Both the position numbers and the translations under genes were made by a program. Positions 1 to 61,159 of a stretch of DNA of 64,000 nt are shown one piece after another (position 1 is the stretch's first letter; each line of letters starts with the position of its first letter). Under the pieces are notes generated by a model, which had not been told where the DNA came from, made no database searches, and saw only the letters and a program-made list of their open reading frames with translations. This DNA is from Ustilaginoidea virens (Eukaryota; Ascomycota; Sordariomycetes; Hypocreales; Clavicipitaceae), in assembly GCF_000687475.1 (NCBI RefSeq), contig NC_057317.1:5208501-5272500 (forward strand). Reading direction: 5' to 3'.

Positions 1-3000
1 GTTTGTGGCCTTTTTTATCGCTAGGAGGATTATTATATTTTAAATCAGTAAAAGGCGCCTAAGGATTGGAAGCCCAATACCACTATACTTAATAAAATCT
101 AATCTAAGTTTTCATCTGATCAGCGCTTTAAGGATATAGTTATTAAAGCATTACAAGCGAAAGGAATCATAATTAATCCTATTGTATTATAACCACCCTC
201 TCTTTCTATATTACTAGGAAATGCGTTTGCTAGTAAGGATAGTAATACGTTATACAACCTTATGCAACCCGAACCGACTATATCGTTAATAACTATTACC
301 AGCCTATAGGCAAGCCTACAGGCATCTCTATCTATTACCAGCCTATAGGCATTCCTATCTATTACTAGCCTATAGGCATCTCTCTCGACTACACCCTATC
401 CACTTAAAGATTCCTGGATACTGGATAGTAGTTCCAATACCCACATCACCAATAATAAAGACCGGTTATTAGATTATATTCTAAATATCGAACCGGAAAT
501 AGTATTTACTAGTGAATCTAATCCTTCTATATTAGGATATAAAAGAGTGCGATTAAATACTAATAAAGGCATCTTCGAGCTATTACATATAGCATATATA
601 CCGACGTTTTATACTAATATGGTAAGCCTAGAGCGATTTATGCGTGCGAATTACTACTAGAACTTATAGACTGGCTAAATTACACATAATAAGGACCATT
701 TATTTTATACTAACCAGATATTTGGCCAGCAGGTTATAGAGTATAGCGAAGTCGCTATTGCTACTGCCACTACTACTACCACCACTGGGGATATTACGGT
801 ATTTTACCTTTCTAACGATACTACGGTATCTTGCCCTTCTATATCTACTACCTCTGTAGATACTACGTCTCCTTCATTTATTATTAGTAGGGAAGACCCT
901 ACTATACCGGATAAAAATATATCTCCGTCAATCAACAATTCTGCAGCTACACAATCCACACTATTTCATCCTACTCAACCTACTATAGTACCTGCTATAG
1001 CAGTAGTTATCTCGAAGGATACCTATAATGCATCTGCCTCGGAAGCTACGGCTATAATATGGCATAAGCGATTAGGCCACCCTAATAAGGAAGCCTTAGA
1101 AAGGATAGTCTAGTCGATTACTAGCGCTAAAATTAAGGGATTACTTACTATTGATTGTAAGCAGTACTCACTATCTAAGGCCACTAGGATTATCAGCCGG
1201 CAGCCCCATTTACCTAGCCTAAGACCTTTCTGGCGGGTATATATTGATATATTTATACTGGACTAAGCTTATAATGGTGCTGTTGCAGTATTATTATTAT
1301 GGGATAACGATACTAAATTTATCTTTTGTTATCCTTTATATTCTAGGACTTAATCGGAAATCCTAGGAAAGCTAGCAGACCTTGATAACTATTTATAGCG
1401 CTAGTGGAACTTTGCTATCTCTATTGTTTATCGCGATAACGACCCTGCTTTCTAGCAATAATACTATAATTGGAAGATATCCTTAGGTATAGAGGATGAA
1501 GTCATAGCGCCTTATACCTTAGCATAAAATGGCCCAGCTGAACGCTTAGGGGGTATTATAGGGACTAAAGCTAGGACCTTACGATTAGCTGCTAACCTAC
1601 CTAAAGATCTATGGCCGGAGCTATAGAAAGCCGCAACCTTCTTATATAATCGCATACTATAATAAGGCCTTCAGTAGATTATACTATATTAACAACTTCA
1701 TTCCTGGCTAGCTAATAACGCTAGGGATACCTAATATACTAACCCTAGGCCTTCTATATTATTCCTCAAGGCTTACGGTTGTAAGGCCTATCCATTAATA
1801 ATAATAGCATTAAAAGGCACTGATCAATAAGAATTAAAGCTAGCACTATACGCTAAGATAGGATATTTAGTAGGTTACGATTCTACTAATATCTACCATA
1901 TATAGATTCCCGACCCTTATAAAGTACGATGAATTCGCAATATTACCTTTAATGAAAATAGTTACTATAGTAGTAAATCCGCCGCTATACCATAACGACT
2001 TGAAATATAATTACTACAATATATCGATAATGCATCTAAGTATAAAGATATAGACGAGCTCTATATATCTTACCCTTCTACTACTGTTATACCTATTCCT
2101 ACTACCCAGCCTTCTATGCCTAGCCCAACCTTACCTTCGACTTCTATACCCACTAGTAAACAAGCTATTCCTAGTAAACAATAATATCTTACAGTCTAGC
2201 TACCTACCTCAGCTTCTATATATCTTTCTGAAGCAAGTGCTAAGACTAGTTCTATACTATAAAGGTCAGTTAGGCTGGCTAGTAAGAATGCTTCTAGTAC
2301 GGCTTTTATTAGCAGTTTTTTTCTAGGCACTAAGGAACGCCTATACCAATCATCCCTACCGCCTGAACTAAGGTTTTAGAAAGACCTAAAAGGTCACCGT
2401 TTTGAACCAGAATTTAAAAAGGCCGTAAAGAGCGAATTCTATAATAATTAGAATAAAGGAACCTTTAAGCCTACCCAACTATTAGACCTTCCTAATAATT
2501 ATAAGCCTATACCACTTACATAGGTGTTTAAATATAAGTATAATAAATACGGCTTTCTTACCAAATTTAAAGCCCGAATTTGTATACGTGGTGATCTTTA
2601 ACCTTATAGTGATAAAGAAACTTATACCGCTATACTAGCTGCTAAGTCCTTCCGAATCTTAATAGCTATTATAACGAAGTTCGACCTTAATACTATACAA
2701 ATAGATGCTATATCGGCATTTACTAACAGCCTATAGGACGAAGTCGTCTATATAGAATATCCAGATGGATTTAAAAGACCTAGATGGGCACTATTACTAT
2801 AGCGCGCCTTATATGGTCTTCGTAGGTCTCCTTACCTATAGCAATAAGAGCTTTTATTAACCCTTAAATCCTTTGACCTTACTCTCATTACAGAAGACCC
2901 TTATATTATGATTACTACTACTATAGTAGTCTTTTATTTTGTGGATGATATAGTAGTACTATTCTAACTAAAGAATCGTCCCAAAGCAGAATCTATCATT

Positions 3001-4020
3001 AATAAATTAAAAGCAGCCTATAAAATAAAGGACCTTAGTACTTTAAAATGGTTCCTAGGTATCCGAATTATACGGCATCAACCTACTAAAACCTAGCTAT
3101 TATAAGACTCTTATATAGAAAAGCTTATATACGACTTCTTAAAAAGAAGAAATATTATATATAAAGACTATCTAATCCTAGAACAGCCTCTTAATAAATA
3201 TACTAGCATTACTACGGCATACGAGATATACCAGTACTAAAAGCTTATGGGCTCTATAAATTACCCAACTACTATGACCCGACCTGATATTGCTGTTGCA
3301 GTCTCCCGCCTTTTAAAATATCTATACAACCCTTCCCCTTACTATTACCTACTAGCAATAGGGGTCACAATATACCTCTATATCACACGTTACTTAGCTA
3401 TTCAATATACTACCATATAATAACAACCAAATAATAATATCTAGCAGTAACTATCTACTAGAGAGCTATTAATATCTTCTAATGCTGCTTTTGCCGATAA
3501 TAAAGAGACCCGGAAATCTACCTAGGGATCTTTCTTCAGCCTATTTGGCGGCCCTATTAATTAGGAAGCCACTAAATAACATACTATTACTATATCTTCT
3601 ACCGAAGTAGAGCTACTAGCTCTATCGTTAACTACTAAGACCACTATATCTATAACCCGTCTTATAGAACAACTAGGACTTAAGCTTGATCATAAGGTTA
3701 CTATTGAGTGCGATAACCTATAAGCTATACGCCTAGTAATAACAATAATGCCCCGTATTAATACTGCATTAAAGCATATCGATATCCACAATAGCTAGTT
3801 GCGATAGGCTTATCAGTAGGGTTTATTCGACCTTACTTATATTCCTACTAATAATATAGTAGCGGATGGGCTTATAAAAGCTCTTATAGGTTAACGATTT
3901 ACTACCTTCCGTAACTAACTAGGCCTAGTAGATATTGAAGACCTAGTACGAAAAACAGAAGATAACGAGAGTAATACCGACTAGCTAGATAGAGCTAGAT
4001 CCTAGCCTATCTAGGGGGGT
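1..4020 (+). pseudogene. copia gag-pol polyprotein, RIP-degraded
   Basis: Seen in the frame containing position 1060: pre-integrase WHKRLGH; integrase core from about 1225 to 1700 with an AERLGGIIGTKARTL segment; RT with KFKARICIRGDL near 2570, a YIEYPDGFK segment near 2750, and the catalytic FVDDIVVL near 2935-2960; RNase H with a SSTEVELLALS segment near 3600 and a VADGLIKAL segment near 3860. Stop codons are only TAG and TAA and fall where copia proteins carry Gln or Trp, as expected if CAG/CAA/TGG lost C or G to CpA-to-TpA change. The protease Asp-Ser-Gly has become Asp-Ser-Ser. It cannot encode protein now. The match is to the copia family as a whole; no specific named element is claimed. 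Confidence 0.88.
295..387 (+). repeat. 27-bp tandem repeat inside copia gag
   Basis: About three imperfect copies of a unit reading ATTACCAGCCTATAGGCATT plus seven bases (27 bp, nine codons, so frame-preserving). The first copy has an extra internal segment. It sits just upstream of the protease motif, in the gag-protease linker. Confidence 0.7.
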
Positions 4021-4021
4021 A

Positions 4022-4586
4022 TATCAGAATGAAATTATTTATTGTTATTTTAGTTTATTATTTTTGGATATCTATCGCCGACAATCTCTATATATCGCCG
4101 CATTATTAGATTGAGAAAGGTATTAAGTATTCAGTACTTATATGTATATGGCGGCTGCTAGTAAAGTTGAGTACCCAGTACTTACATACATTCTCTCACG
4201 CGCAAACATATGATGCATCACAAATTGATCACACCACTTTATTATTGCAAATCTCGATGCACTACAAATGCACATTTCGCCACATATCTATGATATCACA
4301 GTATAGTCATGACATTCACGTCAGATTGATTTCACTAGGGATGTTCTATGTTGGAATATTATGTATTTAAATCCCTAGATATTCCTACCTAAATAGTGGG
4401 AGGAATGTATGGATGTATGCATATAAGCAAGAGTGCATAATTAATTCAGATTATCCTTACGCCTTAGTCTCGTATCTCATCTGTGCCGTTACTTTTACCT
4501 TACTGCGATTTTACCATTCCACTGCCTTTATCCTTCGCATACTGCATTATCTTAGCAGGCGCAAAAACCACCGTTTTTGTTTGACA
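4022..4586 (+). repeat. 3' LTR of Copia-1a (565 bp)
   Basis: Begins directly after a polypurine tract (CTAGGGGGGT) with TATCAGAATGAAA, the mutated form of TGTCAGAATGAAA seen in the two other copies, and ends TTTGACA. The LTRs at 53,683-54,241 (559 bp) and 60,607-61,159 (553 bp) align along the whole length in inverted orientation. The downstream flank is GATAA; no partner duplication can be checked because the 5' end is outside the window. Confidence 0.85.
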
Positions 4587-5833: not shown

Positions 5834-5838
5834 ATATT

Positions 5839-6558
5839 TATTGCAATTCTCAAGGTCACTATAAAAGCAGAGCCTTACTAGCTAGCTAGATGGCACAAGA
5901 CTGTCTGCGACCTGTGAACTAATCTTAGTATAAATACTAGATTTTTCACCAAGTCCTAAGACTATACAAGTGCTATAAAGCAGGGCAAGTGTAAAGGCAA
6001 GGCAAATATAAGATAACCAGAAACGCAGGGAAGGTGGGAGTTAAGAGGCATATAGTGCATTAACAGACTCGATTGTGCTGCCCTTCAACTATCTAGAAAG
6101 AAGGGGGAAAGCTATCCTATATATACACGAAGGAGGGGTGGGCCCAGGCATTCAGGGTAGCCAGTAAGATAGCTCCCCGTAATGCTCACTATGCCACGTA
6201 TATGATACGTCAGCAGCCCCACTATATCCGGCCTTTCTAACCACCCTAACCACCGCACTAGTAATTAGCCACCACGCTAGTGACTACCCACCACACTAGT
6301 AGACTAGCCACCACACTAGTAGGCCGCCACCACACTAGTAGGCCCACCACGCTAATTTAACAATGCCACACCTTTTTAACAAGGCCTACCTTACTTGATA
6401 TACAGTAAATAATCCACTGAAAATCCTTAAGGTAAAAGGCAAAGGCCTAAGGTAAGAAAGACTACCGTAAGTCTAAGAGGCGGTATAAGGGCCAAAAAGT
6501 CAGTAAGCCAGTAGGGTATTAGGCCAGCAGCCTAGTAGGCTACTATAGGATTTTAACA
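5839..6558 (-). repeat. 3' LTR of Copia-2 (720 bp, family 1)
   Basis: On the sense (minus) strand it runs from TGTTAAAATCC to GAGAATTGCAATA. Its U3 contains a minisatellite of short CCACCACACTAGTAGGC-like units (about 6,236-6,355). It lies directly beside the polypurine tract. It differs from the 5' LTR at G/A near 6,074 and T/C near 6,484. Confidence 0.93.
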
Positions 6559-6570
6559 CCCCCTCTGATT
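6559..6570 (-). other. polypurine tract of Copia-2
   Basis: Sense strand reads AATCAGAGGGGG immediately before the 3' LTR start TGTT. This is the expected plus-strand priming site and it fixes the element's orientation. Confidence 0.8.
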
Positions 6571-6685
6571 AGCTACTGTAATAGCAAGCTAATCGTCGTA
6601 TAAAGGATAGTGAAAGAAAATGCAATAAAAGTGCTAAGGAAAAACATAGGAAAAACCTTAGTAAGTTAATATAAGTTAGTATAAG

Positions 6686-9600
6686 TTAGCAGGCCCTAAG
6701 ACCTAGTAACTCGCGGAACCTAGTAAATTTAGGGCCCGGCAGTGGCTTCGTAAGACCATCAGTAGGCATACTATTAGTAGGTAAGTAGGTAATTTTAACT
6801 AAGCCCAGCTGGGCTTGCTCCCTAATATACCGGAATTTTAATAGCGTATGCTTAGTGCGAGCGTGCTGATTAAGGTCATTAGAATTCGAAATGGAGCCCT
6901 AATTATCGCAGTATAACGGTATAGGGCGTAGAATATCGATTTCCAGCTCCTTAAAAAGGTTAGAAAGCCACTGGACCTCTCGGATAGTCTCAAGTAATGC
7001 ATCAGATTCAGCTTCTAAAGTAGATAGCACTACTAAAGAGGCTCGCTTAGAACGCCAGCTAATAGGACCACTATTAATAGTAGTAAGGAAGCCTCCAGTA
7101 GATTTAGAGGTTTCTTTACAGCCAGCAAAATCGCTATCAGAATAAGCGGTTATAATAGGCTGTTAATTGCTTTTAGTAAAGCAAATAGCTAGGTTCTCAG
7201 TGCCTTTAAGGTAGCTAAAGCTGCCTTTCGCAGCATTTAAATGCACATTAGTTGCCTTAGACATGAACCGAGAGAGGTATTAGGTAGGAAATGCTAGGTC
7301 GGGCCTAGTCATCATCATAAGCCACATTATAGTGCCAGTAAGGCTCTAATAAAGGCTCTAATCAGTAGGGCTGAGGTCTTTTCCACTAGATTCATTTAGA
7401 ATCCCTGGTTGAAGTGGAATTAGCTAAGGTTTAGTATCCTGTAAGCCGAATTTAGCTAAAACCTCTACTATAAATTGGGCTTGGTATAGCCACAATAGAC
7501 CTTCCTTCCTATTTCGTATAATCTATACGCCTAGGAAGAAGGAAGCCAGACCGCGGTCTTCTATAGCATAGACCTTATGGAATTTCCTTTTTAGCTGGTT
7601 AATATAAGTTATATTTGGACCAACTAATAGGCAGTCGTCAACATAAGTGACGATAAAGGTGCTAGTTTGCTTATTATAAAAGACGGCAGCATCAGATGCT
7701 AAAGGTAAGAAGCCTTCACTAGAAATCAGGTCTTTTAGCCGGTGTTGCCATTCGCGGGGTGCTTATTTTAGCCCGTATAGGGCCTTCTTTAGTAAAATAG
7801 CTTGCTTAATAGAAGGATTAAAGCCGGCTTCTTTAAGTAAAGTTAGTAGCCGTTGCCGTTGAATATCAGACCAAAGCTTGCTATCGCTATTAGTTAGTAG
7901 TAGGCTCTCTATAAATTCAAGAAATCCGTCAGGAATATCCATATAAATGGTCTCAGAAAGTTCGCTATTTAGGAAGGCGCCTATAAAGTCGATCTGCTCT
8001 ATTTCCCAGTTATTACTAGCAGCCAAAGCCAGTATAACCCTCCAGGTAGGTGGGATAAAGGTAGAAGCATAGGTATACTAAAAGTCCTTTCCTTCGACTT
8101 ACATAAAACCCTTAACAACCAATCTAGCCTTATATTTTATAGGCTGATTATTGGCATCCTTTTTAACCCGAAAAACAGGCCTATTGCATATAATTTTCCT
8201 ATCAATGGGAACGCTAGACTTAGGAATAAATTGGAAGACTTTAGTATCCAATAGCTGCTCAAATTCCTTAAATAATACCTTTATCCAAAGGTCTTTTTCA
8301 GGGCTTCATAGCACATCCTTCCAGCTATTAGGCGTACCATCAGGGGCCTTTTTAGCTAGCTTACGCTTAGCTGCATAGCAGGAATCCCATATCAGGTGGT
8401 ATAAATCCTGATTAGGGAATAAGTCGGTAGGGCTAGTAGGGTCGGTAGGGCCAGCAGGGCCAGCAAGGTCGGCAGGAGTAAGGCTAGTAAGGATATCTAT
8501 AAGGTCATCCTTTGCAGTAGCCAGGGACTGTAATATAGGACGGTTATCCAAGGTAGCATTAGTATTAATAACGCTAGTATTAGTAGGGTCCGGCATGCTT
8601 TCTAGGTCATCCGGTATAACATTAGTATTAGTAATATTAGTAAGGTTAGTAGGGTCCGGCATGCTTTCAAGGTCATCCAGTAAAATAGCAGGTTCTCTGC
8701 TAGATACCCCCTCTAAACCTGTATTTTGCCCTCTGTGAAAGTCTCCTTCTAGGCCAGTAGAAATAGGGCCTATACCTTCATTTTAATAAATAAAGGTGAT
8801 AAAAGTTATTTTAGTAACAACCTTCTTCTTTAGAAGGTAGACTAGGTAAATATTATTACCTAGAGTGGCAAGGAGCCTACCAGGCTCGGTACGGGGCGCT
8901 AATTTGCGGCTTTTTACACGCTTTTCGTATGGTATAAGCACTTCAATAGCTGCTCCAATGGCCCTAAGGTTAATAAGATCAGGGTAGTGCTCCGGCGTAA
9001 TATGGTCATAATCCTTTAATAGCTCCTAATAGGGGCTAGAAGGTCTATTAGTAACAGCTGTTATATTTACTAGCATAACAACGCCAGTAATTACAGCGGA
9101 CCAGAGGTTAGATGGTAGCCTTGACCAGGCCATAGTAGCACATAGCCTATCAGCTATAACCCTAATGGAGCGCTCAGCTAGGCCGTTTTATTCGTGAATA
9201 TAAGGGCAAAAGGTATTAAAAGCTATACCCTATTCAACAAGCCAATCACTAAGCATTTTGTTGATTTCATTTCCACCATCATAGTGGAATTCAACAGGCG
9301 TTTTACCATATCTGACCTGTAGGCTCTGTATAAAGCTCTGTAATGCTTTAAAAACAATAGTGCCTTCCCTATTAGGCAGCAAGTAAAGCCAGCGGAATCG
9401 GGATTTTCTATCTACTAATATAAGGGCAACAGGTCGTTTGTTATATGGCATAGGTGATATAGCAAAAGTATCACCTTCTATAATATCCAGGCATTTAGCT
9501 GGATTAGGTATCGCATCCTTAGAAGGTCTTCTAACCTTCTTAGCCTAGATACAGGCTAGGCAGCGAAAATCAGCATCTTTAACCTTATTAAGGTTAGGAA

Positions 9601-11635
9601 GACCAGGGGTATTAGCACAGGTCTTTTTAAGTAGCTGAATACCTATATGCCCTAGCCGTACATGCCAAATGCCGGCTAATTGTAATAGCTTCTAATATTC
9701 TGTATCAGCAGCTATAGGGGCAGAAGTAGGGCTAGTAGCCACTACGGGATTTTCGCTAGTCGTAATAGCGGGATTTTCGCTAGTCGTAATAGCAGGCTCT
9801 TCGCTAGTCGTAATAGCGGGAGAGTTAGTAGTAGGGCTAGTAGCCTCTACTGGTTCCTTACTAGTTGCAGTAGTAGGAACAGGGGTAATAGTGGTATCCT
9901 CAGGATCACTATAATCAGCAGGGTTAGTAGGGCTGGGGACCTCTACTGTTATACTATTAGTAACAGTATAATGGCTGCAAGGTTGATACAGTAGTGGTGT
10001 GTCTATTCCTTTCTGTGGAAGGAAAAAGCCGTATTTTTCAAAGTTAAAAATGCCGATGCATTTACGGCTTGCTGACCAAAGCTGATTTTTAATTAATACC
10101 CCTTTAGCGGCATAGTGCTTTACACCGCTAATAATATTAATATCCAAGGTAGGAATATATAGGGCATTCTTGAGCTCTATAATACCCCATTTGGTGGGAT
10201 TAACGCCCTATAGCACAGTAAATCGTGCCGTGCCCCAACCAGTAGGGTAAATAGGGCCACCACCAGTAGTAATTACCGGCTTATCATCCTTCTCAAAATG
10301 GTGAAAAGTGGTGAAATGCTTCTTATCATTAACAATATGACAAGTGGAGCCTGTATCATAAAGGAGGGCATCCTTAGGGGTCCTGCCGCCTGATTTAGCA
10401 CTATAGCTTATATCAGTGGATATAGTGGAAGAAGAATAAGATATATTAGTATCCTGGGTATTATAGTTGCCTATAATAAAGGCCTTAACGTCTTGCTGAT
10501 TGCTGCTAGAGTCCTGTTTCTTCTTCTGTTGCTGCTTCTTTTTCCTATTATTAGTAGAATTATTCTTGCTATTATTAGTAGAAGCGGTATTAGTAGACCC
10601 TTTATTCTTAGAGTCTTTGGAAGCCTTAAGCTGCTTAGGGTTATTATTAGCAGCTACTTTATTAGACCCTTTAGAACGCTATTCTTCTAGTAGGTCAACC
10701 ATAAAATACTGGAGGTTAAATTTGCTGCTATTAATAACACCCTGGGCGCTATAAGCCCTAATCATAGAGCGTTGGCGTTCCATCCAGCGGGTAAATACCC
10801 CCTCTACAGCCCAAAGATACTGGTTAACTTAGTCGAAAGAGTCGATCTTGGAACCTAGGATTCTAAGGCGAGAAATATAGCTATTAAATTCGCTATTAAA
10901 AGCCTCCAAGGTGCCCTTATAACCGGTAAATGTAAGGGTGTGAAAGGTAGGGTATAAGTATGCCCGCTGTACTTCTGGTGAGTAGCAATACTAGGCCACC
11001 AGTAAAAGGTAGGCTTCCTCTGGGTCGTTACACCAGTCTATAGCCTCTACAGCTTCTTCACCACAGCTATTCTTTAGCATTAGTAGTAAAAGTGCCTGCT
11101 CAGACTCATCAAAGTGCCTTACTATAGAAGGGTCGTTGACAAAATTAGCTATTTTAAAGGCCCTAAGTTGTATAGTAAGGGCCTGCTTCCACTGGTCGAA
11201 ATTATAGGGGCTTTTTAGCTTCTGTGACTCCTTAAAGCGGTTGGCAGTCTTAGCTAATTCTTTAATAGCCCCATCACTAATTTGGTTGGTGATAGTTGTT
11301 GTTGGTGCTGTTGTGGTGTAAATAGGCTCTTTACCCTTATATTTTATAGGGGTGGAAGGTTGGTCGATTTCCATAACGTCAGCTTCACTATTATCATCCT
11401 TTGTGGTAGTCTTAGTGGAAGGTCCAGCTTCAGTAGCTTTAGTAGACTTCTTATTAATAGCCTGGGTAGCCTGGGTAGCCTGGGAATCGTTATTTTGCCT
11501 ACTAACTAGGCCCTGTATAAGGTCAGTTAGTATATTCATCTGGGATTTCATATCGTCCATATCTAGCTGTAGCTGTGCATTAGTATCAACTTCAGTATCG
11601 GATTCAGGGACCTTATAGGATCCTGACTCTGCCAT
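6686..11635 (-). pseudogene. copia gag-pol polyprotein with about 21 nonsense codons, no frameshift
   Basis: One unbroken minus frame of 1,650 codons from ATG at 11,635 to TAA at 6,686. Order: gag (to about 10,450), protease (DTGSTCHI, near 10,350), pre-integrase (IWHVRLGH, near 9,640), integrase core with VDRKSRF near 9,420, HYDGGNE near 9,280 and the final catalytic Glu in LAERS near 9,170, RT with YVDDCLLVG near 7,630, and RNase H with YSDSDFAGC near 7,140. All internal stops are TAG or TAA. Several replace family-invariant Gln: in the integrase E-QNGLAER motif, in RT YGLK-QAPR and in RNase H DN-QGS. This shows CAG/CAA-to-TAG/TAA mutation rather than random decay. No frameshift was found. 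A longer reading from TTG at 11,644 is possible, but the ATG is preferred. Confidence 0.93.
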
Positions 11636-12347
11636 AGTGGGCAAAAAGGGTTTAAAAATCCGTTGAAAAATAGTGCCAATAGTTGTAAAAACAGAGGAAT
11701 AACTAGCTAAATAGCTAGCAAAATAATTGAATAACTAGTCGGATTGCCAGTATATATAGTGGCTAGTAGCCTACTATAAAAATAGCCGCAGATTATAGCG
11801 GCCGGTCTCAGTATAAAAGCACAGATGCCGTAGGCGTTATGCAAGTCCGTATTATAGCGTTAGTGTTCAAGGTGCTTATATTGTGCCGTAATATAAAGGT
11901 GCCGTAAGTGCTGTAGAAGCCGTAGGTGCCGTAATATAAAAAGGTGCCGTAAGTACCATACCAAAGGTGCTATAAGTGGGAGAGTATAACAGGTGCCGTA
12001 TAGTGCAGTACAAGTCGTGCACTAGGGGAAAAGGTGTTATACAGTAGTATAGTGTGATAGATATCACACTATAAAGTCCGTAGGTGCCGTAGGTTACTCC
12101 AAAAATAACGTAAGGTTACGCTAAAAGTGCCGTGAGGTTACGCCATAAGTTGCCGTTAGGTACGCCGTTGATTGCCGCAGGGTAATACCGTAGGTAATAG
12201 AGGGTAAGCCAAAGGTAATAATAGGTAAGCCAAAGTTAATAAAGGTAAGCCGAAGATACCAAAGGATAGCTATATTAGTAGTACTAATAAGCAAAAGAGA
12301 CCAAGGGGTGAACACAAAAAGGTAGGGTAAAAACAAAGAAGTAAAAA
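11636..12347 (-). repeat. Copia-2 leader with irregular GGTGCCGTA repeats
   Basis: The roughly 710-bp untranslated leader between the primer site and gag contains many irregularly spaced copies of GGTGCCGTAAGT/AGGTGCCGTA (plus-strand reading) from about 11,870 to 12,190, then GGTAAGCCAAAG-like units to about 12,260. It could be a packaging or regulatory region; that role is inference. Confidence 0.6.
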
Positions 12348-12362
12348 CCCGGGCTCATAACC
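12348..12362 (-). other. primer-binding site of Copia-2 (half-tRNA-iMet type)
   Basis: Directly abutting the 5' LTR, the sense strand reads GGTTATGAGCCCGGG. Its complement contains CGGGCTCATAACC, the anticodon stem-loop of initiator tRNA-Met (anticodon CAT), not the tRNA 3' end. Hemiviruses such as Drosophila copia prime from a 5'-half tRNA-iMet cleaved in the anticodon loop. This site fits that scheme. Confidence 0.7.
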
Positions 12363-13082
12363 TATTGCAATTCTCAAGGTCACTATAAAAGCAGAGCCTT
12401 ACTAGCTAGCTAGATGGCACAAGACTGTCTGCGACCTGTGAACTAATCTTAGTATAAATACTAGATTTTTCACCAAGTCCTAAGACTATACAAGTGCTAT
12501 AAAGCAGGGCAAGTGTAAAGGCAAGGCAAATATAAGATAACCAGAAACGCAGGGAAGGTGGGAGTTAAGAGGCATATAGTGCATTAACAGACTCGATTAT
12601 GCTGCCCTTCAACTATCTAGAAAGAAGGGGGAAAGCTATCCTATATATACACGAAGGAGGGGTGGGCCCAGGCATTCAGGGTAGCCAGTAAGATAGCTCC
12701 CCGTAATGCTCACTATGCCACGTATATGATACGTCAGCAGCCCCACTATATCCGGCCTTTCTAACCACCCTAACCACCGCACTAGTAATTAGCCACCACG
12801 CTAGTGACTACCCACCACACTAGTAGACTAGCCACCACACTAGTAGGCCGCCACCACACTAGTAGGCCCACCACGCTAATTTAACAATGCCACACCTTTT
12901 TAACAAGGCCTACCTTACTTGATATACAGTAAATAATCCACTGAAAATCCTTAAGGTAAAAGGCAAAGGCCTAAGGTAAGAAAGACTACCGTAAGTCTAA
13001 GAGGCGGCATAAGGGCCAAAAAGTCAGTAAGCCAGTAGGGTATTAGGCCAGCAGCCTAGTAGGCTACTATAGGATTTTAACA
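12363..13082 (-). repeat. 5' LTR of Copia-2 (720 bp, family 1)
   Basis: Near-identical to 5,839-6,558 with the same length and U3 minisatellite. It is followed by the target duplication ATATT at 13,083-13,087. Confidence 0.93.
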
Positions 13083-13178
13083 ATATTGATTTGCCCCCTT
13101 ATTCGATACCTAAGCCGACGCGCCGAATTTATTGGCATCGTAGGAGGCGCAAAGCTGCGGTAGCCCTAAGGTGCCAAG

Positions 13179-13893
13179 GCGGAGTAGCTAGGCGGGTAAA
13201 TATTAGTCCGTCTTAGCTACTGCTTTATTTACTGTCTTTTTCACTACTCTTTACTGCTTTTTTTACTACTTTATTTTACCTTTACCGCCTTTTTACTGCC
13301 TTTTTACTGCCTTATTTTACCATCTTTTACTGCCGTATTTTACCGCCTTTGCCCTGCCTTTTTTACTATTTTATTTTACTATCATTTTTATTACCCTTTT
13401 TACCGCCTTTTTACTACCTTAATTCACCGCCTTTTACTGCCTTATTTTACCGCCTATTTATTGCCTTATTTTACTATCTTTTACTGCCGTATTTTACCGC
13501 CTTTGTCCTGCTTTTTTTACTATTATTATTTTTACTACCCTTTTTACCGCCTTTTTACTGCCTCACTTCACCGCCTTTTACTGCCTTTTTTTACCGTCTT
13601 TTTACCGCCTTTTTTACTGCCGTATTTTGCCGCCTTTATTCTGCCTTTTTTTACTACTATTGTTTTTACTACCCTTTTTACCGCCTTTTTACTGCCTCAC
13701 TTCACCGCCTTTACTGCCTTTTTTTTACCGCCTTTATACTACCTTCTTTTTACTTAAATATTTTAACATAGTGCATTTTTTATTATTCCCCTCCGGGGGC
13801 CCTCCGGGGGCCCTGCCGGGGGCCGCCTGCGGCGAGCTTCCGCCTGCAGCGGGCTTTTTCGCCTGCAGCGGGCTGCTTAGAAAGCATTGCATG
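13179..13893 (+). repeat. left inverted repeat of gene island: TTTTTACYGCC minisatellite plus GC-rich cap
   Basis: From GCGGAGTAGC at 13,179 through GCGGGTAAATATTAGTCC, then about 550 bp of degenerate units such as TTTTTACTGCC and TTTTTACCGCC, then a GC-rich cap (about 13,785-13,880) of GGGGGCCCTCC and CGCCTGCAGCGGGC units. The same elements occur in reverse orientation at 26,418-26,999. Long open frames here are translations of low-complexity DNA, not genes. Confidence 0.8.
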
Positions 13894-14345
13894 AAGCCGA
13901 CGATATGTGTGTTTTGTGTAGTCTATTAGAGCTAGCTTCTTTTCCGCCACCTCGTCATAATTAAGTATAGACCCGACCTCTTGCAATACTAAATGCTGTA
14001 GCAACAGCCTCATTTACGCCTCTTAAGAGTACGTACCGGATCCACAAAGATACATACCGGCTCTGGTTTTTCAGCCAATAGGGGCGTTTTAGTGCCCTCT
14101 AGACCAATCAGATCGCTGGCTTGAATGACATGTGGCTAGTGATTGTGGTGGCTTAGCACCCCTGGCCTCTCATTAAAGAAGCAAAGCTGGAAGGCACGCT
14201 TTACGCACTTACGTAGCGCACGCTGCACCTTCGGCACAGCTTTGCTTAATAATTAGGCTACTGCAATAGAGCTAATTACCCCTGATACTACCACTATGGC
14301 ATTATATAACCGCCTAGCCTTCCTAATCTATGCCTACGAGAAAGA
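13894..14345. other. region downstream of the DUF3435 pseudogene
   Basis: Moderately GC-rich, no confident gene. The minus frame of the DUF3435 relic can be followed here only with further stops and no recognisable recombinase C-terminus, so the end of that gene is either lost or buried in this stretch. The left repeat's cap begins directly below it. Confidence 0.5.
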
Positions 14346-15797
14346 CTATATAATTGACGATGACTTACTATCGACGCATTCTGCATACCCTCGTTGTTGA
14401 CAGTACTGTGCCAACTTCTCGAGCAGCCCCATGGCGATCCTGAGCCGTTCCGAATGACTGCCGAATGTCAGGGCATCGTCCGATTTCTCCCACAAGTCGC
14501 TGCTGTCGCTGAAGTTGAGCACCTCCCTATGCACTTCCTTCTCCTAAACCTCCTCGCTAAATAAAGCATTGCGCTGAGTGGCAGGCCGGATTTCCATCTC
14601 CAATTTCTTTTCTACGCTCTTTCTCAATTCTGTCTTGCGGAACACCGGTTTATGCAGCCACTCCTTCTTCCACCGAATCTTTAGGGCGCGTTTGTTGAGC
14701 TTGGTGGTAAAGAATGTCTCGGCCCTGGTCTGGTACCCCTCGTTCGCAATGACGCCGTTGGCCAGCGCCTTGGCCAGGATATGGGTTATAGGACAGAGGG
14801 CATGGATTGCCTCCTCGATGAAGATATACTAGGTCGGCACGATCTTGTTGTTCTCGCCCTTGTGGTATCGGAGAAGAACCTGCATGGCCAGGCGGTCCTG
14901 GCCGCCGGTTCCCTCTGGATCGCGGAGGACCTAGAGGTCGATGTCCTCCCAGCAGAGGACCTTGAGCCTCGGGTCGTTATTGCGGTTGTCCATACGGTCA
15001 CACACCTAGCACCTCTTCACGCGTGGCTTGATGTACTTGTCTGTGCTGCATTCTACGTCTGCGTAGGCATCCGATTCCTCGTCATACTCCTTCACTTTTG
15101 CCGGTAGGTCTGTCGGCTTCGCGTAGATCAGCTCGTGTTTTCGACAGCCGGTCCACATGTAGAACATCCGAAGGCACGCATTGTCGATCCGGTCGAGCCC
15201 GATGTGGAACGCCGAGGTGTCGCGCACCCAGAGGAAGTAGAGGTGATACATGAAGAAGTCGGGGCCCATGATAGGCTTGATCTTCGGTTCGCGCCTCAGC
15301 GCCCACTTGCGCGTAATCTCAGAACGGATGACGTTCCGAAGGTGATCCATGAGCGACCTCTCCGGCGGGTGAGCGTTGTACTTCCTGTACAAGCCGCCCA
15401 GCTTCCTCGTGTGCACGCGGATGGCATTCTCGCTCCTAATCGGTTTTCCCTGCAATTCTGCCTGTCGCATGAGGTAGCGCATGAACGATTCGCCGAGCCC
15501 CTTGTTCTCGTAGCTGAGGATTTTGATGAGGCCCTTCCAGTCTCGGCGCCCCATCTTCGCCGCGAAAGTAATCCATCGGCGCTTGAGATGAACGAGGTAG
15601 GCCTTGTGGCGGTCCGAAAGCTTCGGTGGCACTGGGCGGCGCCGGTTGCCCTGTTGCCAGACATCATGGAGTTCCTGGGCCTCTAAGGGCTCGGGTTCGG
15701 GAGTCTCTTCGTCGCGAAGTTTCCTGTCGATATCGCTCAATTCTGGACGGGTCCAGCGGGTCCATTTCAGCCACAAGAGCGCGCTCGTGTCGGCGAA
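14346..15797 (-). pseudogene. DUF3435 tyrosine recombinase (Starship captain-like), broken
   Basis: One minus frame of about 480 codons interrupted only by TAG at 15,006, 14,931, 14,829 and 14,544, each fitting a mutated CAG or TGG, with no frameshift. DUF3435 hallmarks in order: LWVRDTSAFHIGLDRI; MWTGCRKHEL with the presumed box I Arg (near 15,141); LCWEDIDL and VLRDPEG; RYHKGENNK with a candidate catalytic Lys (near 14,855); HALCPITHILAKALANG; IRWKKEWLHKPVFR; and YCQQRGYAECVD, aligning with the family's YCLRRGSAN box II (near 14,400). The C-terminal Tyr region is not recognisable. No ATG start is visible: an in-frame TGA stands at 15,798-15,800. Family members are crypton-like recombinases that mobilise Starship elements in Pezizomycotina. 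Composition is normal, so mutation was light. It is transcribed toward the left repeat, away from the host genes. Confidence 0.82.
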
Positions 15798-16364
15798 TCA
15801 AGCCGCGAACCCAGCCACAACACGCCACGAGATCTCCCTCAAAAGGGCGAAATACATATATTAAGGCGGAGTACCAGGCAGGGTTGCACGATATACCCGA
15901 TCAACGCAAGCACAACAGCTCCAATACGAATGCTTTGCGGAAGTCCCAGAGGAAATCAAATACAATATGGGGGCAAACTGACTTGACTGTTCTTCTTGGA
16001 ATTTTCTAAACAGGAGCGCGATAGGACAGCATCTCGATTTAAATCTCCTGGGTAGCCGGACTCCCGGATCCTGGGCTTGGAGGTACTTCTGAAGGGTGGT
16101 CGAGGGTGCCAAAAACAGCGGGTCGGGGTTAGCCAAAATCGGCACCCAGGACTGCAAAACATGACCTACTTATGTAAGGATATTTGTGCTGTCATAATAG
16201 TATTTCGCAAATCGTGACTCTCATACCGGCTCTCACGGAGCACAAGTTCCATGTAACTTGGCAAGCATCGTGTATGAGGAGTCGACCCTTTAATCATTAC
16301 CAACAGGCGCAAAGATCTAGGACTCACATGCGCGAGCGCCGTCTTTATTTGCTGCCCCTTCCCG
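15798..16364. other. intergenic between recombinase relic and membrane-protein gene
   Basis: No gene seen. It contains the likely lost 5' end of the DUF3435 gene and the promoter of the gene starting at 16,365. If the recombinase headed a Starship reading leftward, the 5' element edge would be expected here; I see no decisive terminal motif. Confidence 0.45.
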
Positions 16365-17375
16365 ATGGACGACGTTGCTAACGACGTGCGACCATGCGAT
16401 CAACCCAGACCAGCCTCAGGGCATCCTCTGCACCCGGCAAATGCGAGGCTTCTCTCTCGAATCCCTTTCATAAAATCACCAGCCGACGCTCAAACGCAGC
16501 AAAATGTCAACCAAACACGTAAATCGACGCCAACGGCCGATTCTTCGCCACCTATGTCTGCAGCAACACAGCAACACAAAACCCGGCGTCGAAGAGGGTC
16601 TCTTAGGAAGGCTGCACTTCTTGGACGCGGCGCGCAGCGAGAGCGGAGAGATAGTAAACCATTGATGATTGATACTCTACACGCCAACGCATTCGAAGAA
16701 GGAACGACTACGTCGTCTTCCTCAATGACCGCGGAACACAACGCTTTGGGTCTTAAAGTATCCGATTTCGCACCTCGCGCGCTTCCAAAAAATCAAAGCA
16801 CACCCTCCAGTTCAAATCAATCAGTTCGGCTTTTAGAGAAAATTGTTCCGCCTCCTTCCCAAATCGAGCCAGAAACCATACGCCAAGATTCTTACAACTC
16901 AACTACCGACGAGGAGGACGTTTTGCAGATGCACACTAACGAAAGATTGGCTGCGCCCAATATTTCTGCATCCCCTGGATCTGATTCTTACTTTGCAAGT
17001 TGCGCCGCAGGTTCTCGTCCTCGGTCCTTCCAACAGGCAAAGTCTCCTCTGTCGTATAGCTCAAGCACAAACCTTCCGGCCTCGAACACTGCTTGGGATT
17101 ACTCAGAGACTGAGTGGTGGGGCTGGGTTGTTCTGACGGTTACATGGTTTGTCTTCGTTGTAGGAATGGGGTCCTGCCTTAACGTCTGGAGCTGGGCATG
17201 GGATGTGGGCACGACACCATATGCACCCCCGGAGCTTGAAGATGACCCGACTCTGCCTATAGTTGGGTATTACCCAGCCCTCATGATTCTGACGGGGGTT
17301 ATGGCTTGGGTCTGGGTCGTTGTTGCCTGGGTAGGGATGAAATATTTTCGACATGCCAAAATAAGCGGCGACTGA
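16365..17375 (+). CDS. conserved fungal two-pass membrane protein, function unknown
   Basis: Open frame of 336 codons. The N-terminal 250 residues are polar, Ser/Thr-rich and probably disordered, with a basic RRRRGSLRKAALLGRG motif near residues 74-89. The C-terminal 86 residues carry two Trp-rich membrane helices (about 253-271 and 303-325) joined by a loop with WSWAWDVG and YAPPELEDDPTLPIVGYYP, and end in a short basic tail (KYFRHAK). The strong composition bias of the helices and the clean stop support a real gene. An internal ATG at 16,554, just before the basic motif, is a plausible alternative start. I do not recognise the family. The two-helix layout with a Tyr-Pro motif before the second helix loosely recalls PIG-P subunits of GPI synthesis, but that is only a guess. 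Confidence 0.75.
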   Translation: MDDVANDVRPCDQPRPASGHPLHPANARLLSRIPFIKSPADAQTQQNVNQTRKSTPTADSSPPMSAATQQHKTRRRRGSLRKAALLGRGAQRERRDSKPLMIDTLHANAFEEGTTTSSSSMTAEHNALGLKVSDFAPRALPKNQSTPSSSNQSVRLLEKIVPPPSQIEPETIRQDSYNSTTDEEDVLQMHTNERLAAPNISASPGSDSYFASCAAGSRPRSFQQAKSPLSYSSSTNLPASNTAWDYSETEWWGWVVLTVTWFVFVVGMGSCLNVWSWAWDVGTTPYAPPELEDDPTLPIVGYYPALMILTGVMAWVWVVVAWVGMKYFRHAKISGD

Positions 17376-22690: not shown

Positions 22691-24098
22691 CTACCTCGAT
22701 GCCTTGGTCTTACGTCTACTTTTACCTGGCCGTGTCGTTTTAGGTTTTCCCTTTGCACCGCCAGCCTTCATCTTCTTTGTGTTGAATGCTGACAGGTCCC
22801 CCGAGCTAGCGGCATCTCCAGATTTAGCATATCGCTTTTTGCCGCCAAAACCGTACTTTTCGTTCTTCTTTTGGCGTTTTGTGTTGGGGCCATTAGATTG
22901 ACCGCCGCGCCCAGAAGGTCCAGCACGTTGGGAGTGCTTGGCAAGCTCATTGTCGACGCTGACGTCGAAAAGGTCTGCCTCATTGGTAGTCATGTCACCA
23001 CCCGACTCTTGTCGTTCTGCAAGGGAAGAAGACGTCTTAGCTTATGGCCTTCTGGGCGTGATGCCATGTTGATGGGGATTGGTAACGACGGCTGTACAGC
23101 AGGTGAGACTTACTTCGCTTGAGTGTCTTGATCTTTTCCAGTGTTTCGCGCTTAGCCTTCTGACGCTCCTGAAGCTTGGCAACCTGGACCTGCTTGCCGA
23201 ATTTTTTCAAGTCGCGCAGCTTGCGCGCGTCTGTGGCGGCCTTCTTGGCTGAAGCTTCTTCAATCAACTTGGCTTTGACCTTTTCCATGTGGGCATCCTC
23301 CTTGACCATCTCAGCGAAGTAGTCCTTTGGCCGAGAAAAAGGAACGCCTTCCGCCAGAAGTCTTGTGCGTCCCTCCTTGGCAGCCTCGAGGCACTGTGAA
23401 TAGAAAGCGAGCTCCCGCTGCAAGTCATCAGAGACATCAGGTATAGAATCGGCGGTCTTGACCGATGAAGCAACGGACTGGTGAGTCGCAAACTTTGCGG
23501 TCTTATCGATGGGGATGGATATGCGATCGAGAGCGGACTGAAGAGCAGAGGTATTGTTGATGGTGAGGCGGGTATGAGGTATTAAATCCTCCTTTTCTTC
23601 GTCATCGAGATCTTCGAGATCGGAGAGAGGAACATCCTCCTCATCATCTTCCTCTTCTTCATCCACGTCCTCGACAGCATCCTCATCCTCATCGACAACT
23701 TCTTTCCTACTTGGATTTTTGTTGTTATCCCTCGCGGGCTTTTTGGACGAGCGTCTTTCAATCTTGACTTCCATCTCGATTTCCGAATCGGAGCTGTCGG
23801 TCTCATCTACAGCACCAAGATTCACCTGCGATTGGGTTAGCTGCCGCCTTTCCCGACACAGTTGCACTTCAAGAGACGCTGGTGGCAGTACATGATTGTA
23901 ATCGATGTGTTGGCTATCCTCCTCGCCTTGTTCCGTCTTTTCGTCCGGGGCATCTTCAGTCAAGGGCGCCCGTCCATTCTGGGGTGTTGAACTTTTTCGC
24001 TTTAATGTTTCCCTGTGTTTTTTCTGTTGCTTTAATATCTTGAAATCGACGCCCCTTTCTGCGGCTATCGCCATGCGAAGCTTGCTTTTAGTGACCAT
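22691..24098 (-). CDS. ebp2: rRNA-processing protein Ebp2, two exons
   Basis: Exon 1 is 24,098-23,114 and exon 2 is 23,016-22,691, split by a 97-bp intron (GTAAGT...TTGCAG) inside a Lys codon. The result is 436 residues. The N-terminus is basic, followed by a long acidic region (about 134-172). The family core includes the signature GVPFSRPKDYFAEMVKEDAH (251-270) and a Lys-rich coiled-coil stretch (about 275-325). The tail is basic and Gly/Lys-rich (RQKKNEKYGFGGKKRYAKSG) and ends KSRRKTKASR. Ebp2 is a nucleolar protein needed for 60S subunit assembly and 27S pre-rRNA processing, partnering Rrs1 and other pre-60S factors. The extension of the first frame past the donor site is intron read-through, because the conserved C-terminal tail lies only in exon 2. 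Confidence 0.93.
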
Positions 24099-26424: not shown

Positions 26425-26999
26425 CCTAAGCAAAGGCTTGCTTGCTGCAGGCGAAAAAGCCCGCCGCAGGCGGCCCCCGGCAGGGCCCCCGGAGGGCCCC
26501 CGGAGGGGAATAATAAAAAATGCATCATATTTAAATATTTAAGTAAAAAGAAGGTAGTATAAAGGCGGTAAAAAGGGTAGTAAAAACGACAGTAAAATAA
26601 GATAGTAAAAAAGGTAGGGTAAAGGCGGTAAAATACGGCAGTAAAAAGGCAGTAAAAAGACAATACAATAAAGCAGTAAAAATATAGTAAAATAAGACTG
26701 TAAAAATGGCAGGAAAAAAGCAGTAAAAAAAGGCAGTAAAAGGCAGTGAAGTGAGGAAGTAAAAAGGCGGTAAAAAGGGTAGTAAAAACGACAGTAAAAT
26801 AAGATAGTAAAAAAGGCAAGGTAAAGACGGTAAAATACGGCAGTAAAAATGGTAAAATAAGGCAGTAAAAAAACAGTAAAAGACGGTAAAATGAGGCAGT
26901 AAAAAATGCAGTAAAAAAAACAGTAAAAAGAGTAGTAAAAAAAACAGCAAATAAGCAGTAGCTAAGCCGGACTAATATTTACCCGCCTGGCTACTCCGC
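26418..26999 (-). repeat. right inverted repeat of gene island
   Basis: Reverse-orientation counterpart of 13,179-13,893: GC-rich cap (GCAGGCGAAAAAGCCCGC, GGCCCCCGGCAGGGCCCC, GGAGGGGAATAATAAAAAATGCA) followed by GGCAGTAAAAA/GGCGGTAAAAA units and ending ACTAATATTTACCCGCCTGGCTACTCCGC. The ends match the left copy base for base over short blocks, while the minisatellite body differs in length and order. Confidence 0.8.
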
Positions 27000-54723: not shown

Positions 54724-55403
54724 TCCATTATCGGTGGTATCCCTTCGTAATAATATAAGAATAATAATTAACAAAAACTTTATTTTATAATAAAATAAGA
54801 AAATAAGTTTAAAATTTTTAGTACTACTTACCTAATTATCTCTATTTTTTAAATTTAAGGCGTAGAATAATAATATTAGAAAATTTTAATAAAAACTATA
54901 GAAATCCGCTTATATTATTATTTTTTAAAAAAAATCATATTTATTATATTATATTAAAAACTAGATGTAACATATGCTATAATAAGTTATTAATAATTAT
55001 AAGTATTATTATAGTAATAATCTTATTGAAATTTATTTGTGATAAATAGAGACTTATGATTTCATGATGTCAAATTTTATCTGACAGTTAAAGCCCGAAT
55101 TTACACTTTTCCACCCTTACTTTCCCGTCCCGCTGGGAAAAAACCATGTCTGCCGATCTTCACACGCCCATATAGTCTTAAATAAACAGATCCGGAGCTC
55201 TTTTAAAACCTGCATTGTGCCTCAATCGCCTGGCTCTGCCAGCATCATGATGCAGCTGGACTTAGACAGCCAAAGATAGCGTGCTGGCTTACTGAACGTT
55301 ATCTTCATGCAATTGGCTCGCCCAGACGCTGCATCTTGGGGTTCGACACTATGATTCAAGACAAAGAAGACATTAAAAAAAATGTAGCACAACTATCGGA
55401 GTC
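54724..55403. other. AT-rich spacer into NAP1 3' flank
   Basis: Very AT-rich to about 55,060, then a sharp change to normal composition marking the edge of the NAP1 island. No gene seen before the NAP1 stop. Confidence 0.6.
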
Positions 55404-56862
55404 TCAGCTCTGCTTGCATTCAGCGGCTTCCTGTTTAGGTTTGCCAGATTCATCCTATACCTTTGGTCAGTGTATTGCAGCCTTGCCTGCCCGATTGCAG
55501 AAATGTAACTGACCTCCTCATCGGACTCATCTTCCTCATCATGATCCTCACTAATATCATCCTCGTCCTCATCCTCGTCATCGTCAAAGTCTTCACCCTC
55601 TAAATCATCCTCGTCGAATTCGTCTTCAAAGGCAAGGGCTTCACCAGTGAACCAGTCAATAGCGCGAGGTATGAGCTTTTCCTTGATATCTTCTCCGAGC
55701 TGATAGTCGAGCTCAAGACGATCTTCAATATCGCCTAGGCCCTCATCATCTCCAACCGCATCATCTGGAGCTTGAGGTGGTGAAAAGAAGTTGAAAAAGG
55801 ATTCGGTAGGAACAGTTTTTTTGACAATGCGAGTCTGATTGGTGTCTATACGTCTATTAGCGCTTGATCTGTAAGTGGTAAGAGGTTGAACGTTGCGTAC
55901 TCTTATTTCTCTGCTTCTTGGCTTCAACCCGCACGGTCAGATCCCTGCCTGGGTACCATTCAATTTTATCACCCTCTGCGTGATCGTAGATAAAATCGCC
56001 ACCATAGCCACTCTCGTTCTGGTAAAAATAAGTCTTGGTAACAATTTTGTTTGTGAAAAATTCGTTCTCGGCAAATTCGAAAATAAGCCGGAAGCCAGGT
56101 TTGTCGAGATACTCCATGCGAACATCAGTCAAGTGCTTTAGAGCAGCTTCATCGCGGTCGGTGATCATTTCGGCTAAAGTTGTCTGGTTTTTCATGGCGG
56201 AGAGCCAGAATTCAGGAATCCCAGCAACGTCCTCAGCGACTTGAACTTGCTTCTGCTCGGTGACGTCAGAGACGTCTTCAGAATGGAGCTTCACATGTTC
56301 GTTATCGCCAGCTTTAACTTCTTCCTCAGTAGGCTCTACTTTGCCGTTTACGATAGCAGAACGCTTTTCGTAGAGAGGGGTGAACTTGGCGAAATACTTC
56401 TTCTCAAGTTCAAGGACTTCTTTCTGGAATTCGTCTTCGAGTTTTGAGTGCTCCTGCTGCACGGCTCGAAGCCCAGCAACACGACGTCGAACAACAGGGG
56501 GGAGGGATTCGATATAGCCTGAAGAGCGACCGATAAGGGAGCCTAGGCGACCTTGAATCATTTGCACAAGCTTGGGATTTTGAGCAAATATAGCCGCGGC
56601 AGCGACGCGATCCATGTCCTCTGTGCTAGGATTAGACACTTATTTATCCCTTACAGTTGAATCTGGTCTGGATTTTACCTTCTTTAATACTAGCTACACT
56701 AGGTTGTTGGGCATGAGAAGAGATTGGCGCATTGGTGGCGGGCGTATTCTGCGGCGTGCTTGAGGTGGGGTAATTAGCCCTGCGAGGTTCGCGTAAATGG
56801 TAAGTAGTAGTCACTTACGGCGCCGTCAAATCAGGTCGCTTGCTTCGAATGGGTTCAGCCAT
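55404..56862 (-). CDS. nap1: nucleosome assembly protein 1, five exons
   Basis: Exons 56,862-56,819, 56,779-56,679, 56,620-55,901, 55,845-55,514 and 55,454-55,404. The introns are 39, 58, 55 and 59 bp, all GT-AG. Predicted 415 residues, beginning [15 protein letters not shown]. Family features: the helical dimer region (near residues 70-120, [17 protein letters not shown]), [12 protein letters not shown], the core [20 protein letters not shown] and [27 protein letters not shown], then a long acidic tail ([10 protein letters not shown]) and a C-terminal CKQS. Nap1 is an H2A-H2B chaperone shuttling between cytoplasm and nucleus; the terminal CKQS resembles the prenylation box known in NAP1 proteins. 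The open frames overlapping each intron end outside conserved sequence, supporting these splices. The first intron is unusually short. Confidence 0.9.
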
Positions 56863-60606: not shown

Positions 60607-61159
60607 TGTCAAACGGTTTTCGCCTGCTAAGATAATGCAGTATACAAAGGATAAAGGCAGTAGAATGGTAAAATCGCAGTAAGGTAAAGGCACAGATAAG
60701 ATACGAGACTAAGGCGTAGAGACAATCTGATATGCATTAATTCTGCATACTTGCTTGCATGCATACATCTATACTTCCTTCCCACTATTTGGGTAGGAAT
60801 ATCTAGGGATTTAAATACATAATATTCCAATATAGAACATCCCTAGTGAAATCAATCTGATGTAAATATCGTGACCATACTGTGATATTATAGATATATG
60901 GCGAAATGTGCATTTATAGTACATCGAGATTTGCGACGATAAAGTGGTGTGATTAATTTGTAATGCATTATACATTTGCGTGTGAGGGAATATGTATAAG
61001 TACTAGGTACTCAACTTTACTAGCAGCCGTCTTATAAATATAAGTACTGAATACTTAATATATTTTTCAATCCTATGATGCGGCAATGCATAGAGATTGT
61101 CGGCAATAGATATCCAAAAATAATAAAATAAAATAACAATAAATAATTTCATTCTGACA
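60607..61159 (-). repeat. LTR of Copia-1b (553 bp)
   Basis: Plus strand TGTCAAACGGTTTTCGCC to TTTCATTCTGACA, adjoining ACCCCCCTAG. It aligns with 4,022-4,586 and 53,683-54,241. Confidence 0.88.

Follow-up and report, generated by a model that had tools for sequence, protein, structure and literature searches.

A truncated, dead captain-type DUF3435 recombinase gene in Ustilaginoidea virens with its nearest relatives in distant fungal orders

Genes of the DUF3435 family (PF11917), which include the captains of cargo-carrying Starship elements, are more usually solo than part of a recognised element, and the captains among them are not a single clade, according to the accessible part of PMC12134995. 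Starship transfer across orders has been reported for Verticillium and Fusarium (PMC12289983, available portion), and for the captain of Sanctuary a putative active site of R260, K308, Y424, R427 and Y458, in which a tyrosine replaces the histidine of Cre, is given in the accessible text of PMC12506042. Here we describe a member of this family in a 64,000-nt stretch (contig NC_057317.1, 5208501-5272500; the window, to which all positions below refer) of Ustilaginoidea virens UV-8b (Hypocreales, Clavicipitaceae), where an earlier note on the DNA had seen a captain-like DUF3435 recombinase next to host genes. On its own the fragment is a dead gene of an ordinary kind; what sets it apart is that its near relatives sit in distant orders. 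U. virens is the rice false smut fungus. We consider it quite probable that the window holds the 5' fragment of a captain-type gene which was acquired horizontally, either from copies present today in Sordariales and Xylariales or from a source shared with them, and was then silenced and cut down. Genome-wide searches refer to the U. virens assembly (37158136 bases in 8 contigs), and homologous proteins are cited by number (P0001 and so on).

14365-15913, minus strand: DUF3435 (captain-type tyrosine recombinase) pseudogene, 5' part only, reading leftward; from PF11917, 66 homologs and tblastn of P0035 and P0001
15763-15765, minus strand: start codon predicted from relatives (MDPLDPSR...), off-frame; from the relatives' alignment and tblastn
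14544-15008, minus strand: four in-frame TAG codons (15008-15006, 14933-14931, 14831-14829, 14546-14544); from frame translation and comparison with relatives

The profile search that the earlier note had named as its check came out in its favour: the minus-strand frame 15797-14346 matches PF11917 with E = 5.1e-18 and 65.7 bits (curated cut-off 25.8 bits). The match is real but does not run over most of the length, as had been claimed, since it spans only profile positions 7-162 of 418, or about 37% of the family. Of 5546 candidates in a homology search with the frame, 66 proteins had E <= 0.001, and the fold model of one full-length relative is that of a Cre-like tyrosine recombinase. When ten relatives are aligned with the fragment, its box I arginine (GCRKHEL) and strand lysine (HKG) prove to be conserved, and the LCPITH segment is present just as had been described. 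With these matches, the Y-x-x-R of the relatives and the adjoining PIG-Y, MYND-finger and EBP2 genes, the idea of a captain-like recombinase beside host genes is confirmed. A PDB sequence search gave weak exportin matches only (E 0.037 or worse) and was not used.

The extent first proposed, 14346-15797, needs correction at both ends. Bases 14346-14364 come from the interior of a dispersed repeat (R) and lie outside the gene, so that the final TAG of the frame belongs to R, while upstream the similarity to P0035 continues to at least 15913, where the P0035 protein record starts, and therefore the recombinase covers about 14365-15913 or more. Similarity to P0001 runs to 14364 by tblastn. Within these limits lie some 150 bp of upstream sequence that is conserved, untranslated and resembles P0035 at 81-86% when translated, followed by coding sequence with the box I arginine, the strand lysine and a damaged box II; the last four bases seem to be the start of a conserved intron. 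A PF11917 profile search of the whole genome has this fragment as its single match, and so have searches with P0010, P0005 and P0022, relatives with the C-terminal half. The recombinase gene is thus single copy as far as a six-frame search reaches, which heavily mutated copies could escape. With the same proviso for strongly mutated copies, captain-type genes seem rare in the U. virens assembly as a whole.

The fragment is a pseudogene, and in this the verdict of the earlier note ("dead") holds good on four counts: stops, a changed frame, a lost box II arginine and a lost catalytic tyrosine. All in-frame stops of the frame are TAG, as had been noted, three of the four within the gene standing where the majority of close relatives has Trp and one where it has Lys. 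They are not the only breaks, however: the predicted start is off-frame (the frame changes between 15724 and 15719), the 3' half is gone, and box II reads YCQQRG against YxxRRG in relatives, its first R (the arginine of Y-x-x-R) being replaced. The sequence stops short of the nucleophile tyrosine, and genome searches with relatives that carry the missing 3' half did not find it elsewhere in the assembly. A complete active site (R, K, Y/H-x-x-R and nucleophile Y) is therefore absent, which fits a dead member of the DUF3435 tyrosine recombinases, and present-day activity is not expected. That the gene might still be in use, its stops read through or spliced out to give a truncated or domesticated protein, would agree with its well-preserved 5' half (4 differences from P0001 in 146 sites beyond 750 bp from the 3' end of the fragment) and with a GT at the conserved intron start; given an off-frame start, four stops, no box II arginine, no catalytic tyrosine and no second exon after the apparent intron, such use is barely conceivable to our minds. 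Among close relatives in other fungi P0011, P0015, P0035 and P0041 also look broken or shortened, with frame changes and absent parts, so that much of the clade may be dead. The models from Rhypophila decipiens and Diplogelasinospora grovesii are themselves shortened like the fragment, whereas P0005 from Daldinia grandis still has the C-terminal half that the fragment has lost, including the tyrosine and an end resembling a zinc finger.

The most informative feature of the fragment, which the earlier note did not contain, is its similarity across orders. Two proteins of Rhypophila decipiens (P0011, P0015) match it at 92% over 221 aa and 91% over 224 aa, Daldinia grandis P0005 at 87.5% over 304 aa, and Diplogelasinospora grovesii P0009 in two stretches, at 74% and 81%; the closest named relatives, from Sordariales and Xylariales, reach 88-92% with matches that cover 46-62% of the frame. 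Nine named hypocrealean proteins, in contrast, reach 42-56%. In a careful 22-row tree the fragment groups with P0001, P0005, P0009 and P0011 at a support of 100/97; a quick 48-row tree agrees and, in that tree only, has P0015 join the clade. Hosts of the close clade members belong to three subclasses of Sordariomycetes (Hypocreomycetidae, Sordariomycetidae, Xylariomycetidae). Forcing the fragment together with three Metarhizium rows was rejected by the approximately unbiased (AU) test (p-AU 5.9e-40), as was forcing it with two Metarhizium plus three Fusarium rows (p 4e-7). How far ordinary genes have diverged over the same distance can be read from two neighbours.

16365-17375, plus strand: PIG-Y-domain host gene, the divergent neighbour of the recombinase fragment; from a domain match, used as yardstick for vertical descent
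23037-24098, minus strand: EBP2 host gene, corresponding to UV8b_03204; from a domain match, used as second yardstick

The window EBP2 is 93% identical to UV8b_03204 of U. virens over 93% of the query, introns ignored. Among the best 120 of its 2376 matches, seven Daldinia rows show 54-59% over the whole query and an eighth 69% over 56% of it, while rows of Metarhizium, Epichloe and Claviceps show 64-68% at 93-98% cover and two partial rows of these genera 74-76%. PIG-Y, among the best 120 of 1757 matches, has at most 63% to any row besides itself and 55% to Annulohypoxylon. Rhypophila is absent among the EBP2 and PIG-Y matches listed.

In these protein comparisons, then, the gene tree conflicts with the species tree and the identity of the recombinase exceeds that of the host genes. 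Together with the shared upstream sequence, cross-order identity and trees make horizontal spread the best reading, and arrival of the recombinase gene in the U. virens lineage by this route is likely on sequence grounds; as its closest relatives occur only in distantly related fungi, the fragment is probably the fossil of an element that crossed species. Two of these comparisons need qualifying. The lower of the two AU values overstates the case, because the three Metarhizium rows do not form a clade when the tree is unconstrained (the test with Metarhizium and Fusarium being the fairer one), and EBP2 is an uneven yardstick, because its more conserved half gives high partial rows (again among the best 120 of 2376) of up to 79% (Geosmithia) and 87% at maximum over about half the query. 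The alternative of vertical inheritance sees a DUF3435 gene of long standing in Hypocreales, which decayed in U. virens and in relatives either diverged or disappeared, and it can draw on DUF3435 genes in Fusarium, Metarhizium, Beauveria, Tolypocladium and Neonectria, all of them Hypocreales. We hold it to be highly improbable: hypocrealean copies stay at 42-56% against 88-92% for rows of two other subclasses, the clade test rejects a grouping with Metarhizium and Fusarium, and host genes are far more diverged across the same distance. Assembly error or contamination, which closest named relatives from other orders might suggest, is more improbable still, as the fragment lies inside a 6.8-Mb contig, is continuous on one side with repeats present on seven contigs, and faces on the other a host gene whose best named relatives, among the matches listed, are Clavicipitaceae and other Hypocreales.

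How the gene came to be cut down may be seen at its 3' end, where it meets the repeats.

14364/14365, no strand: joint between the recombinase gene (within the conserved intron) and the inside of repeat R; from tblastn, comparison of R copies and genome search
14247-14364, plus strand: 118-bp internal slice of the dispersed repeat R, unclassified; from comparison with R copies
13109-14246, no strand: repeat A, about 1.1 kb, a T-rich satellite plus a GC-rich stretch, inserted into R and apparently flanked by a TA target duplication; from comparison of copies
13083-13108, plus strand: piece of R between the copia long terminal repeat (LTR) element and repeat A; from R-copy comparison
5839-13082, minus strand: copia-type LTR retrotransposon inserted in R; from RVT_2, the LTR pair and a target duplication

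Relatives appear to have an intron directly after "ECVDS", judging by gene models that read into it (P0001, P0003, P0004) as opposed to spliced ones (P0005, P0013), and the gene sequence ends at 14365, about four bases inside this intron. On the other side the R copies examined (22, from a list that covers the best 40 scored matches) continue beyond the point that matches 14364, so that R, too, is cut at the joint. Since the joint lies inside both partners and the other half of the gene did not turn up in the genome, a deletion is the best reading, and 14364/14365 most likely marks such a deletion rather than the edge of a Starship. That R simply inserted into the gene is disfavoured, R being broken at 14364 and the remainder of the gene not found by genome search. 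An introner (mobile intron) origin of the 118-bp slice, considered because the slice begins where the gene's intron does, was rejected too: its copies extend on both sides, and it is thus part of a longer repeat. R itself had been taken for a retroelement, an idea since dropped in favour of leaving it unclassified; a Pfam scan of two copies (L019 in six frames, L033 in three, stops read as X) found no family in the nine frames.

The order of the R pieces shows that R was split by two insertions, the copia-type element and repeat A: the pieces at 13083-13108 and 14247-14364 adjoin (within about 10 bases) in all 22 R copies examined, and a piece ending at 5836 precedes them in 13 of the 22. Copies of the satellite and GC-rich stretch of repeat A also occur in several other repeat loci of the genome, and two inverted copies, at 13179-13850 and 26444-26999, flank the island of host genes on both sides. 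The copia element has LTRs of 720 bp (5839-6558 and 12363-13082) with 2 differences, and a 5-bp target duplication (ATATT, 5834-5838 and 13083-13087). Of its domains RVT_2 (E = 7.9e-42) and Pol_BBD score over their cut-offs, rve and gag_pre-integrs below; in a scan of six frames, one had RVT_2 and five were without any family. Its LTRs are near-identical (2/720), yet its composition is like that left by repeat-induced point mutation (RIP; TpA/ApT 1.98), which would make it a young copy whose source had already been mutated, or else natively TA-rich.

Was the lost part a Starship? Starship captains and the fragment have PF11917, the box I arginine, the strand lysine and a cross-order distribution in common, and a Cre-like fold as modelled on the fragment's full-length relative; its relatives also carry a Y-x-x-R motif layout matching that of the Sanctuary captain (PMC12506042, accessible text). 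Unlike captains, the fragment has only a 5' half, a replaced box II arginine, no catalytic tyrosine and an out-of-frame start, and no element edge or cargo has been demonstrated around it. It resembles solo DUF3435 genes, the commoner state in the available part of PMC12134995, in being one recombinase gene without demonstrable cargo, and differs from them in being cut at a joint with a dispersed repeat; owing to this cut, lack of cargo is no evidence for a solo origin. A narrower version of our explanation, already suggested in outline by the earlier note, sees here the captain of a cargo-carrying element just left of PIG-Y, with its 5' edge at about 15.9-16.36 kb and its body deleted and replaced by dispersed repeats. 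The conserved sequence upstream of a captain-type gene, a direction of reading away from the host gene, a distribution across orders as reported for Starships (PMC12289983, in the part available) and the absence of anything of the gene beyond the joint are in keeping with it, and the orientation fits an element with its 5' end on the PIG-Y side. On the other hand, no boundary, direct repeat or empty site was shown at 15.8-16.4 kb (P0035 similarity reaching at least 15913) or elsewhere, no cargo gene was found left of 14365, where the region examined (5.8-14.4 kb) consists of dispersed repeats of this genome, and DUF3435 genes are more usually solo, as the accessible part of PMC12134995 has it. 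A DUF3723 search had 0 matches, its controls being silent as well. The copia insertion foreseen to the left of the gene does exist, but it sits inside R and not demonstrably in a Starship. On balance we lean against this fossil Starship while keeping it as a possible origin, and the loss of a cargo-bearing element is, in general, no more than tentatively put forward. Somewhat doubtful, too, is a reading in which a Starship moved between Hypocreomycetidae, Sordariomycetidae and Xylariomycetidae, inserted next to PIG-Y in the U. virens lineage and later lost its body by deletion; the fragment would then be what survives of its 5' edge and the sole recognisable captain-type trace in this chromosome-scale genome, where genes that it delivered may persist at other places.

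Returning to horizontal acquisition followed by silencing and truncation, a course of events may be envisaged in which the U. virens lineage received a gene from, or sharing its source with, the copies that Sordariales and Xylariales carry today. Intact, this gene would have encoded a site-specific recombinase of Cre-like type with an R...K...YxxR...Y active site, and the DNA element that it moved would have had its 5' end to the right, toward PIG-Y. A deletion with one end in the recombinase intron and the other inside repeat R would then have taken away the catalytic tyrosine together with the C-terminal region and anything beyond it, and light RIP-like mutation beside the repeats may account for some of the stops. 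As to this last step, RIP leakage from neighbouring repeats into the gene is possible: three of the four TAG codons are RIP-type, and within 750 bp of the joint stops have replaced three of eight conserved Trp sites and another residue a fourth, against none changed of six farther away. Damage is in excess near the repeats (25/247 vs 5/199 sites, p=0.001), an excess that is suggestive only. It weakens to 17/198 vs 5/185 (p=0.015) once every row is set against the majority of the remaining rows, a comparison in which P0009 has an excess as well (12/107 vs 6/146, p=0.045) and near and far do not differ significantly in P0001 (8/192 vs 2/128) and P0005 (10/193 vs 0/46). Two findings argue against RIP: a dinucleotide index (composite RIP index, CRI) of the gene is without RIP sign in two 1-kb bins (-0.3 and -0.62), and only 5 of 30 differences from close relatives are RIP-type. 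On composition and the paucity of such differences, RIP was rejected as the main cause of gene death.

If a captain-type clade does span three subclasses of Sordariomycetes and includes a rice pathogen, this would be a further cross-order case for Starships, and the clade names donors and recipients whose genomes could be searched for shared cargo. In the accessible portions of literature naming both U. virens and Starship, U. virens figures only as an effector source, a pathogenicity-database entry or a citation, although the Starship survey doi 10.1093/nar/gkae327 may differ; a 2026 comparative-genomics paper on U. virens (PMC13233505) has neither "Starship" nor "DUF3435" in the main text available.

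As for the setting, window positions 14-26 kb form a GC-richer island with the PIG-Y, MYND-finger and EBP2 genes, and the blocks flanking it are AT-rich repeats of RIP-like composition. Scans of the window with Rfam (gathering threshold) and for tRNAs were empty. A nucleosome assembly protein gene (NAP, PF00956) lies at 55373-56639 on the minus strand in two overlapping frames (E 2.4e-70 and 2.2e-24), and its composition is not RIP-like, though that of the surrounding AT-rich block is. Close to both window ends, at 2006-4566 and 60617-63171, stand the arms of a 2.57-kb inverted repeat with 89.6% identity.
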